DNA of 64,000 nt from Marinitoga sp. 1197 (GTDB lineage Bacteria > Thermotogota > Thermotogae > Petrotogales > Petrotogaceae): assembly GCF_001021165.1 (NCBI RefSeq), contig NZ_AZAY01000016.1, positions 1-64,000 on the forward strand, read 5' to 3'. Every line of letters begins with the position of its first letter. Position 1 is the first letter of the stretch. Shown here piece after piece: positions 37,034 through 60,765 of the stretch. The notes beneath the pieces are model-generated. The model was not told the DNA's origin and searched no databases. It saw only the letters and a program-made list of their open reading frames with translations. The translations under genes were made by a program, and so were the position numbers.

Positions 37034-37062
37034 TTGAAAAGTAACATTTATTTTTGTATACT
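37034..37062 (+). promoter_or_regulatory. Promoter of the candidate small RNA
   Basis: TTGAAA (37034-37039) and TATACT (37057-37062) are spaced by exactly 17 bp. This is one of the best plus-strand sigma-A promoters in the window, and no start codon with a ribosome site follows before the terminator at 37121. Confidence 0.7.
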
Positions 37063-37068
37063 ATTGGT

Positions 37069-37146
37069 GTAAAAAGAAAATCCCCCTATCCCCCCCTGAA
37101 ATAGATGGATAGACATTTAGCGGATCCACTGGATCCGTTTTTTTTA
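37069..37146 (+). ncRNA. Candidate small RNA, C-rich
   Basis: A transcript from the promoter at 37034-37062 would start near 37069 and stop at the terminator at 37121-37146, giving about 78 nt. It contains ATCCCCCTATC followed by seven consecutive C (37090-37096). CTATCC and GGATAG can pair and place the C-run in a loop. Long C-runs are rare in this AT-rich genome. Exposed C-rich loops are typical of trans-acting bacterial small RNAs that pair with G-rich ribosome sites. No open reading frame fits. The neighbouring gene at 37214 has its own -10 element after the terminator, which argues against a simple leader attenuator. Confidence 0.6.
37121..37146 (+). terminator. Intrinsic terminator after the C-rich RNA
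   Basis: CGGATCC and GGATCCG form a 7-bp GC-rich stem with a 3-nt loop (ACT), followed by eight or more T. It is oriented for plus-strand transcription and lies 145 nt after the MMPL stop codon. Confidence 0.85.
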
Positions 37147-37161
37147 TATTATAATTCATTA

Positions 37162-37170
37162 TGATATAAT
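37162..37170 (+). promoter_or_regulatory. Extended -10 promoter for the pseudokinase gene
   Basis: TGATATAAT lies downstream of the terminator and 44 bp before the start codon at 37214, so the gene can be transcribed independently of the C-rich RNA. The ribosome site is GGAG at 37203-37206. Confidence 0.55.
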
Positions 37171-37213: not shown

Positions 37214-38899
37214 ATGAAAAAATATATTATATTCTTAATACTAAATTTTTTAACTATAATTACTACTTTTATTGTTTTTATATTTTCTATAAAATATAAT
37301 ATTGAAAATTATGTACAAATCAAAGATATTAATTATTTAAAAAATGCTATAATTGCTATTGATAATAATTTAAAAGAAAATATATTCCATTATGTAAAAA
37401 ATAACCATATTTTGCTTAAACCTTTTAAATTAATATTGTATAAAAACAATAAAATTGTTTTTTCCGATTTTGAAAATCCAGATAATAAAGATTTTTATTT
37501 TAATAATGTTGAAATTGGAAATGATTTATATTCTTATGGTTATGATTTATCAGAATATGCAAAATATATCAATAATTTCTTCGATTCTTTAATATTTTTA
37601 GAGTATAACAATAAATTTTATCCAGAGCCTTTACCTAATACCAACTATAAAAAATTGAAACTTAATGATATTTATTTTTACATTATTTTCAATAAGAATT
37701 TTACTACTCTACTTGATCAGGAATTACCCATTTTTATAACTATAAACATTTTATTATTCTCTCTATTATTATTTTTAATATATAAAATTTTTGCTCTGTC
37801 AAATAAAGAACTAAATAATTTATTTTTATTTCTTGAAAATAATGAAAATATAGAATTAAAAACCAAAAAAGGAATTTTTTTAAAAGAAAAAATCAAACAC
37901 ATTATTAATGAATCAAAAAATAAAAAGAAGGAAGTAGAAGAATTAAAGACAGAAATTAAAAAAATTAATATTAATCATAATAATCTAATAAATGAATTCA
38001 TTTTTTATATAAATACACCTCTTCAAACACTTATTAATTCAATTAGTTTAAATTTATCAGAAGATATTGAAAAAAAGATTATTACTAATATTATTTCAGA
38101 AATAAATATTATTATAAACAAATTTAAAACTATATTTTATCATGAATATAATGTTGGCAATCAAAATTTCTTTGAATTTTTTGATATAAATGAGTTTCAT
38201 AGTAATCTAATTTATTTTTTATCCATCTATATAGATAAAAATAATATCACTGTAGAAAAAGAAATAAATATAAAAAATAAATTTGTTTTTACAAATAAAA
38301 ATAAGCTATATAAAGCACTATACGAAATATTACTTTTAATTTTCATGGATAAAAATGGTGGAAGAATAGATATTCTTTATACTTCAACTGATAATTTTTT
38401 AGAAATAAAAATTATAGATAATGATAATATTCACAATGATTATATTTTATTATTAAATAATAAATCATTGTTTGATAAATCAAATATAGAATCATATAAG
38501 ATCGAATCTATATTAAAATATATTGATGATTTAAACGGAAAGATTTTTTTAACTCAAAGTGCTTCTAATTCTATTATTAAAATTGAAATCCCTATTGATA
38601 TTAATGAATTCATAATAAATTTTGATTTCAATGCATTAAAATCTTCGTATTTAGCTAAATTAATTGAGAAAAAGTATACTGTTAATCAGGCAGAAAAATA
38701 CCTATATGAACTTTTATCAATATATGTTGATGTTTTAAAAAATTCTCAGAATGATACTTTGAATGATTTGATTTCTGTTTTAGAAAAAAATGATTTTTAT
38801 TTATTAACAAACTGGTTGAAATTCATATTAAAATATCCCGATAATAAGAATATTGTACAATTCAAAAATTTATTAATAAAAAAATTGGAGAGCTTATAG
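37214..38899 (+). CDS. Membrane pseudo-histidine kinase
   Basis: The 561-residue protein has a membrane helix (about 5-27), an extracytoplasmic domain (about 30-168), a second helix (about 171-195), a lysine-rich coiled coil (about 220-260), and a region shaped like the kinase dimerisation and ATPase domains (about 255-465). The phosphorylation helix reads EFIFYINTPLQTL: the TPL landmark is present but the position of the phospho-acceptor His is Phe264. The ATPase part lacks the N box asparagine (LYKALYEILLLIFMD) and glycine boxes (IDNDNIHNDY in place of DTGxGI). A C-terminal all-helical region of about 90 residues follows. It is probably a catalytically dead sensor or scaffold. It is unusually rich in Asn and Ile. 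Confidence 0.65.
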   Translation: MKKYIIFLILNFLTIITTFIVFIFSIKYNIENYVQIKDINYLKNAIIAIDNNLKENIFHYVKNNHILLKPFKLILYKNNKIVFSDFENPDNKDFYFNNVEIGNDLYSYGYDLSEYAKYINNFFDSLIFLEYNNKFYPEPLPNTNYKKLKLNDIYFYIIFNKNFTTLLDQELPIFITINILLFSLLLFLIYKIFALSNKELNNLFLFLENNENIELKTKKGIFLKEKIKHIINESKNKKKEVEELKTEIKKININHNNLINEFIFYINTPLQTLINSISLNLSEDIEKKIITNIISEINIIINKFKTIFYHEYNVGNQNFFEFFDINEFHSNLIYFLSIYIDKNNITVEKEINIKNKFVFTNKNKLYKALYEILLLIFMDKNGGRIDILYTSTDNFLEIKIIDNDNIHNDYILLLNNKSLFDKSNIESYKIESILKYIDDLNGKIFLTQSASNSIIKIEIPIDINEFIINFDFNALKSSYLAKLIEKKYTVNQAEKYLYELLSIYVDVLKNSQNDTLNDLISVLEKNDFYLLTNWLKFILKYPDNKNIVQFKNLLIKKLESL

Positions 38900-59446: not shown

Positions 59447-60765
59447 TATTTACCTCCTATTATTTTTTCATAAATGAGTTTCATTTTCATTTTTCCCGGA
59501 GGATTTTCTGATATTTCATATGATTCTTTTAATAATCGCATTGCTTCTTCAACATTACTTTTATCAGAAACATATAATTTAGCAATAACATCACCTTTTT
59601 TCACTTTAGAACCTAATTTTTTTAATACTTTAATACCAACAGAAAAATCTATTTCGTCCTCTTTTTTCTTTCTTCCTGCTCCCAATACCATGGACGCAAT
59701 TCCAACTTTTTCTGTATCTATATGTGAAATAAACCCATCTTTTTCTGCTTTAAATTCCATAATTTTATCTGATATTGGCAGTATATTTTCTGGTTCATCA
59801 ACAACCCTATCATCTCCACCTTGAGCTTTTATCCACTTTTTCATAATCTCTAATGCTTTACCATTATCTATATTTTCCTTTAACACCTTTCTGGCTTCTT
59901 CATATGAATATAATCCTGATAAATCTAACATATTTGCACCTAATTCAATACATAATTCTGTAAAGTCTTCAGGACCTTTCCCTTTTAATGTCTCAATAGC
60001 TTCGAGTACTTCCAATGAATTACCAATATTATCCCCTAATGGTTGATCCATATTGGTCACCAATGCTACTATTTTTCTATTATTTAGTTCTGCTATTTCA
60101 ACCATAGATTTCGCCAATTCTACGGCATCTTCTACATTTTTCATAAAAGCACCGCTTCCAGTTTTTACATCTAATACTATTCCGTCTGAACCAACAGCCA
60201 ATTTTTTACTCATAATGCTTGCTGAAATCAAGGATATTTCATCTACTGTTGCTGTTACATCTCTTAATGCATATATTTTTTTATCAGCTGGAGCAATATT
60301 ACCAGTTTGACCAGCTACAACCATCCCAACTTCATTTGCAATTTTAAAAAATTCGTCTTTTGAAATCGCTGTTTTAAATCCAGGAATTGATTCTAATTTA
60401 TCAATTGTTCCACCAGTATGCCCCAAACCTCTTCCAGATAATTTTGATACCTTTAATCCTGCAGATGCAACCAACGGACCTACCGCAAGTGTTGTTTTAT
60501 CTCCAACTCCTCCTGTAGAATGTTTATCTATTTTTATTCCTTTTATTCCTGATAAATCTATTACATCTCCACTATCCCTCATAACCATTGTAAGATAATA
60601 TCTCTCTTCTTTTGTCATTCCTTTAAAATATATTGCCATTAACCATGCTGAAATCTGATAATCTGGTATTTGACCATTCACATATCCATTTATCATAAAT
60701 TCTATTTCTTCTTTTGTATTAACTTCACCATTTCTTTTTTTATGAATTATATCTACTGGCCTCAT
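59446..60765 (-). CDS. pdp: Pyrimidine-nucleoside (thymidine) phosphorylase
   Basis: The 439-residue enzyme splits thymidine, deoxyuridine or uridine with phosphate. The family signature KHSTGGVGDKTTLAVGPLVA and the phosphate-binding SGRGLGHTGGTIDKLESI region are intact, as is VKTGSGAFMK. I prefer the ATG at 60765 (MRPVDIIHKKR), 8 nt after GGAGG; the ATG at 60771 is only 2 nt from it. The gene overlaps the sensor kinase gene by about 26 bp. Confidence 0.94.
   Translation of the reverse strand: MRPVDIIHKKRNGEVNTKEEIEFMINGYVNGQIPDYQISAWLMAIYFKGMTKEERYYLTMVMRDSGDVIDLSGIKGIKIDKHSTGGVGDKTTLAVGPLVASAGLKVSKLSGRGLGHTGGTIDKLESIPGFKTAISKDEFFKIANEVGMVVAGQTGNIAPADKKIYALRDVTATVDEISLISASIMSKKLAVGSDGIVLDVKTGSGAFMKNVEDAVELAKSMVEIAELNNRKIVALVTNMDQPLGDNIGNSLEVLEAIETLKGKGPEDFTELCIELGANMLDLSGLYSYEEARKVLKENIDNGKALEIMKKWIKAQGGDDRVVDEPENILPISDKIMEFKAEKDGFISHIDTEKVGIASMVLGAGRKKKEDEIDFSVGIKVLKKLGSKVKKGDVIAKLYVSDKSNVEEAMRLLKESYEISENPPGKMKMKLIYEKIIGGK

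Follow-up and report, generated by a model that had tools for sequence, protein, structure and literature searches.

In Firmicutes, the small RNAs (sRNAs) of the RoxS/RsaE family carry C-rich unpaired seeds that are kept over a wide taxonomic range. C-rich unpaired regions have also been shown to act on Shine-Dalgarno sites in IsrR and, as cited in the same study, in FsrA (PMC9410917). For Thermotogae, a 2022 survey gave a single annotated sRNA (PMC9029176). RNA sequencing (RNA-seq) of Thermotoga maritima yielded 13 putative unnamed intergenic non-coding RNAs (ncRNAs), presented in the main text without structure, family or conservation (PMC3636130), and a structured-RNA search over 26 genomes included Thermotogae (PMC8632094). 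Here, we analyzed a stretch of 64,000 nucleotides (nt) from the thermophilic marine bacterium Marinitoga sp. 1197 (contig NZ_AZAY01000016.1; the window), in which a preliminary description had proposed an undescribed C-rich sRNA with its own promoter and terminator at positions 37034-37147. Comparison between genomes indicates that this segment is almost certainly a conserved sRNA gene and that its putative product, called type I RNA below, is, as judged from sequence, a family reaching across nearly the whole phylum Thermotogota.

The element was detected by BLAST in all seven Marinitoga genomes compared, which include Marinitoga lauensis LG1 (Petrotogaceae, Thermotogota), with 92-97% identity in the six others. 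Weaker BLAST matches were obtained in most other Petrotogaceae, and a covariance model built on 13 homologues (R1) found the element in all of them. R1 matched 98 of the 103 Thermotogota genomes at E <= 0.1, and 92 were left at E <= 0.001; the phylum is represented by one class in this set, so phylum and class searches cover the same 103 genomes. Among 16 non-Thermotogota control genomes, picked for containing the core string by chance, the best match was 1.5e-6. At E <= 1e-6, a cut-off stricter than that match, R1 detected the element in 80/103 Thermotogota genomes belonging to 10 of 11 families (counted manually from the match table). Conservation, which the preliminary description had suggested looking for within Petrotogales, was found throughout nearly the whole phylum. 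Core-bearing contigs labelled as other phyla were rejected as chance occurrences, with the exception of JAMOAB010000007.1 (L062). This contig of a Bacillota-labelled metagenome-assembled genome holds a Petrotogaceae-type copy (96.5 bits) among Petrotogaceae neighbours and is probably mislabelled, mis-binned Petrotogaceae.

What is conserved differs between the core and the terminator. In an alignment of 42 homologues (A2), the string CCCUAU-CCCC was invariant, and the commonest form of the core was ACCCCCCUAUCCCCCUUGAGAUACACCCCCCAC, followed by the terminator. The lengths of the C-runs varied from 4 to 7, and a third C-run was shortened or missing in most Petrotogaceae. In the terminator, the letters change and the pairing is kept: 94% of the alignment cells were paired, versus 19-55% in slid controls, and compensatory changes, which the preliminary description had suggested looking for in the stems, occurred at 9/9 pairs of the stem in 45 homologues. 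These values were computed on an alignment fitted to the model (A3) and lean towards the model's structure. RNAalifold returned no structure for the MAFFT alignment A2 because the terminators were misaligned in it, and A3 was used instead. In the window, the terminator stem (37119-37139) has nine pairs, five of them G-C, and terminators as a class were enriched (11 versus 2.3 expected from shuffles). Promoter-like sites occurred at chance level (87 versus 81 expected), which counts against the promoter match taken alone. The locus nevertheless stands above chance because of its conservation, the compensatory changes in its terminator and the 17-nt promoter spacer. This spacing recurs, together with a [GT]T[AT]ACA box, in the homologues of other Petrotogaceae and of f7 that were inspected by eye. 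Promoter, body of about 78 nt, terminator, C-runs and CTATCC/GGATAG arms all lie where the preliminary description had placed them (Table 1). The small size of the element would suit a gene for a short peptide or a terminator fragment without function. Either is scarcely credible: the bodies of the aligned homologues contain indels and have no start codon in common, and a promoter with an invariant non-coding core across the phylum would be unexpected for a fragment.

The element also appears to be undescribed, as first proposed. No Rfam 15 family matched the window element, the type I loci or the loci of a paralogous form (type II, below) at the gathering threshold; the best sub-threshold matches were SraG (E 0.15) and L20_leader (E 0.21), and Rfam and ARAGORN gave no match to 6S RNA, tmRNA, SRP or tRNA.

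From one family to the next, the type I RNA is surrounded by unrelated genes (MMPL, PHP-domain, mnmE-like, radical SAM, phosphate transporter, lysS, flagellar and others; named by inspection only, except MMPL and PHO4). The neighbourhoods number at least 15, bear no relation to each other and have their flanking genes on either strand. Since the neighbours differ between families, a role as a cis-acting leader is excluded for the family as a whole, and the RNA is free-standing and probably trans-acting. This upholds the earlier view that it is not the 5' leader of the gene at 37214. For the window copy itself, it is very improbable that the RNA is a leader or attenuator of that gene, which encodes a degenerate histidine-kinase-like protein: no alternative antiterminator was seen, the terminator is followed by a separate promoter ahead of the gene, and the downstream gene is unrelated in other families and often on the opposite strand. 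A TATAAT is likewise present shortly 3' of the terminator in other Marinitoga. The product of this gene (37214-38899) is a 561-amino-acid protein with a membrane N-terminus and a degenerate histidine-kinase-like C-terminus; it has no confident Pfam domain and diverges fast among Marinitoga species (30-50% identity). In Thermotoga (L099, L106 and other loci), the RNA lies divergently to a gene for a PHO4-family phosphate transporter; in genome G093, the homologue next to this gene is at contig 1, 934662-934740, minus strand.

Table 1. Features of the type I RNA locus in the window. The RNA ends are placed from the -10 element (5') and the terminator (3').
Feature	Position	Strand	Basis
Sigma-70 type promoter: TTGAAA 37034-37039, 17-nt spacer, TATACT 37057-37062	37034-37062	+	Sequence and scan
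GTAACA box directly after the -35 hexamer	37041-37046	+	Sequence
Putative type I small RNA, about 78 nt	37069-37146	+	Exact match of covariance model R1
Double C-tract core CCCCC-UAU-CCCCCCC-U, presumed seed	37082-37097	+	Alignment A2 (42 homologues); predicted unpaired
C-runs CCCCC and CCCCCCC	37082-37086 and 37090-37096	+	Sequence
Genus-level hairpin CUAUCC (37086-37091)/GGAUAG (37107-37112), second C-run in loop	37086-37112	+	Predicted fold
Intrinsic terminator, AGCGGATCC/GGATCCGTT stem and T-run	37119-37146	+	Scan; covariation in 45 homologues
Separate promoter of the downstream gene, TTTATA-16-TATAAT with TG before -10, directly after the terminator	37143-37170	+	Scan

The predicted fold of the window RNA was more stable than those of shuffled sequences (z -3.3). 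Its two C-tracts were predicted to be unpaired with probabilities of 0.87/0.74 at 37 C and 0.92/0.86 at 65 C, and the C-runs to be accessible over 37-80 C. No strong stem was conserved in the body among homologues. The hairpin that had been proposed to display a C-run, CUAUCC/GGAUAG, was identical in 7/7 Marinitoga, and the corresponding stem is also present in several type II paralogues; in type I homologues outside Marinitoga, only UAUC..GAUA-like remnants of it were seen, so that the proposal holds for the genus and not for the other type I homologues.

With a probability of roughly 0.6, we read the locus as a stand-alone gene for a trans-acting sRNA whose exposed C-tracts pair with G-rich Shine-Dalgarno stretches. 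The promoter, the terminator, the conserved core predicted to be unpaired, the changing neighbours and the paralogues are read directly from sequence, and from these we infer that 37034-37147 would be transcribed as a stand-alone sRNA. The two C-tracts would then serve as seeds for AGGGGGAU and similar stretches, and their pairing may block ribosome entry and alter the stability of a set of messenger RNAs (mRNAs), under a putative regulator whose site would be the conserved box of TAACA type next to the -35 element. In keeping with such pairing, ribosome sites with five G (G5) are frequent in the AT-rich genome of Marinitoga sp. 1197: GGGGG before ATG was matched 284 times versus 76 for the reversed pattern used as a control, and GGGGGAT 47 times versus 9; about 200 genes have G5 sites and about 40 have GGGGGAT. 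The idea of a trans-acting regulator keeps its support from the free-standing gene, its own promoter and terminator and the accessible C-runs; the targets named for it fared differently.

These targets were the glycogen genes glgD and glgC, together with ndk. The pairing of AAUCCCCCU (37079-37087) with AGGGGGATT of glgD (9/9 pairs) and the AGGGGGA ribosome site of ndk were both found in the sequence as described. Moreover, AGGGGGAT was kept before glgD in 6/7 Marinitoga, and GGGGGGAT-like sites occurred before glgC in most of them. Against a specific regulator of these genes stand the many other G5 and GGGGGAT sites of the same genome and the absence of the sites from glgD and glgC in most other Petrotogaceae carrying the same C-blocks. 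In Petrotoga, for instance, the two genes have GAGGTG or GGAGG with no G-run, though the Petrotoga RNA has the same C-blocks. We regard such a dedicated role as decidedly unlikely, and a part in glycogen synthesis as a hypothetical possibility at the level of the genus. As far as sequence goes, the proposed targets are compatible with pairing and are not distinguished from many ordinary G5 ribosome sites, among which fuller matches were not enriched.

Several observations weigh against seed pairing as the function of the core. Conservation of the glg sites ends with Marinitoga and a few relatives; outside the genus, G5 sites of glgD and glgC were sporadic (some in G007, G010, G016 and two f10 genomes). 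An AT following G5, which would extend the match to the RNA, was not enriched (14 versus 11.6 expected, first 80 listed sites). No extended complement GGGGGATAGGGG was found apart from the RNA loci themselves, and GGGGGATAGGGG-like complements were no more frequent than in the control, save for one genome that carries a repeat. No gene family recurred across genera among the genes with the best seeds. Finally, pairing with plain GGGGG would not require the UAU that separates the C-tracts to be invariant. As a separate observation, AGGGGGAGAGGGC is present in genome G012 in dozens of copies, as a dispersed repeat.

Other candidate targets were also rejected. The 34 own-genome genes read with GGGGGAT sites had mixed functions. 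A first impression of enrichment in hydrogenase and Fe-S genes (TM1266-like, POR subunit, DUF362 ferredoxin) was dropped as evidence because the G-run of TM1266-hydG belongs to its own conserved leader hairpins. For TAGGGGGAT sites across the family, no gene recurred across genera among the loci read, and a Petrotoga match (L360) lies inside a histidine kinase coding region. A dedicated long target spanning both C-tracts was not found beyond the RNA loci.

Some of these observations lend weight to an explanation in which the C-rich, G-poor, unstructured core CCCUAUCCCC binds or titrates a protein, such as Rho, a cold-shock protein or a different C-binding protein, with only a minor part for mRNA pairing. 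Such an RNA would account for a core that keeps every letter throughout the phylum, UAU spacer included, in both type I and type II, with neither an extended mRNA match nor an enriched Shine-Dalgarno flank. The candidate partner is, however, hypothetical, the variation in C-run length (4-7) suits pairing, and a C-run presented by a hairpin, as in Marinitoga and several type II RNAs, is typical of pairing sRNAs. We consider protein binding unlikely as the main function, and pairing with G-rich ribosome sites remains our preferred reading.

Paralogues of the type I RNA keep the core and have diverged flanks. The type II form, GCGACCCCCCUAUCCCCCCUUGGAU, was found in families f2, f3, f8 and f10 (L269, L270, L272, L279, L286, L318-L323, L326-L347), mostly as one copy per genome. 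Its pattern matched 37/103 genomes, two f1 matches (G007, G011) being type I copies. In several families, type II RNAs have stems nested in one another: the outer arms vary in concert (GAGUGC/GCACUC, CAGC/GCUG, AGUG/CACU), and the inner CUAUCC/GGAUAG stem shows the C-run in its loop, all as read by eye rather than counted with a tool. A third, Marinitoga-only form with CCCCUAUCCUCCUU (in Marinitoga sp. 1197 at G000:C48:64097-64170, minus strand; also L094-L098, L132, L133) has CCUCCUU where the second C-run would be; this string is a perfect anti-Shine-Dalgarno sequence.

In many families, type I and type II promoters have in common a box TTGAnA-n-[GT]T[AT]ACA around -35 (37041-37046 in the window), which suggests common control of the two types. 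A good -35 is missing from some of the promoters (Thermotoga, f3, f10), as though they needed an activator. In f3 (L326-L328, L333), type II is divergent from a gene reading like a ferredoxin-NADP reductase subunit. Control by Rex, Fur or Pho was considered and rejected: half-sites were suggestive, but spacing or symmetry did not fit (by eye). More tentatively, and with odds against it, the RNA could be an ancestral global regulator of Thermotogota, whose growth temperatures lie between about 40 and 80 C. One promoter control box would then govern up to two or three paralogues in each genome, and the core would mainly bind or titrate a conserved protein or compete for G-rich ribosome sites as a class.

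Alongside these RNAs, a conserved leader was seen before a TM1266-like gene and hydG ([FeFe]-hydrogenase maturation) at L212/L238 (G000:C15, about 59800-59960), in Thermotoga (L246-L252) and at L239-L245, L258, L259 and L265. Its layout, CCTGACACC-GGGGGAGGGG ... CCCCTCTCCCGG ... GGAGAGGGGG-TTTT, predicts hairpins that exclude each other, the second of them containing the ribosome site. It had no Rfam match and is a candidate undescribed attenuator or riboswitch.

We know of no earlier broadly conserved regulatory sRNA in the deep-branching thermophilic Thermotogota. With its near phylum-wide distribution, almost invariant core and several paralogues, the type I RNA would be the first. It would also make RNA-based regulation testable near 80 C, a temperature at which a seed is expected to hold only if it is rich in G-C.

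Among described RNAs, the unpaired C-runs fit an sRNA that blocks Shine-Dalgarno sites, like IsrR or FsrA. IsrR of Staphylococcus is likewise a small RNA with several C-rich runs predicted to be unpaired and its own promoter and terminator (PMC9410917). It acts in trans, and its targets are G-rich Shine-Dalgarno regions in a genome that is likewise AT-rich; for the type I RNA, such a mode of action is a proposal. Unlike the type I RNA, IsrR carries Fur boxes and, ahead of its terminator, three stem-loops, and no sequence similarity between the two was detected (no Rfam match). No Fur-like inverted repeat was seen by eye in type I promoters, in which the recurrent box is TAACA/TTACA. FsrA of Bacillus subtilis has a C-rich motif binding Shine-Dalgarno sequences (as cited in PMC9410917), but it has an iron-sparing role with Fbp chaperones and differs in phylum and sequence. 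Since neither a Fur-like box nor a set of iron or Fe-S targets was recognised, the type I RNA was not filed with these two. RoxS/RsaE differs in that it gave no Rfam sequence match and in that the Rex operator spacing is one base short (by eye). Within the same phylum, one of the 13 putative ncRNAs of T. maritima could be the type I RNA, which is checkable at once in the existing RNA-seq data (GSE37483, named in PMC3636130).
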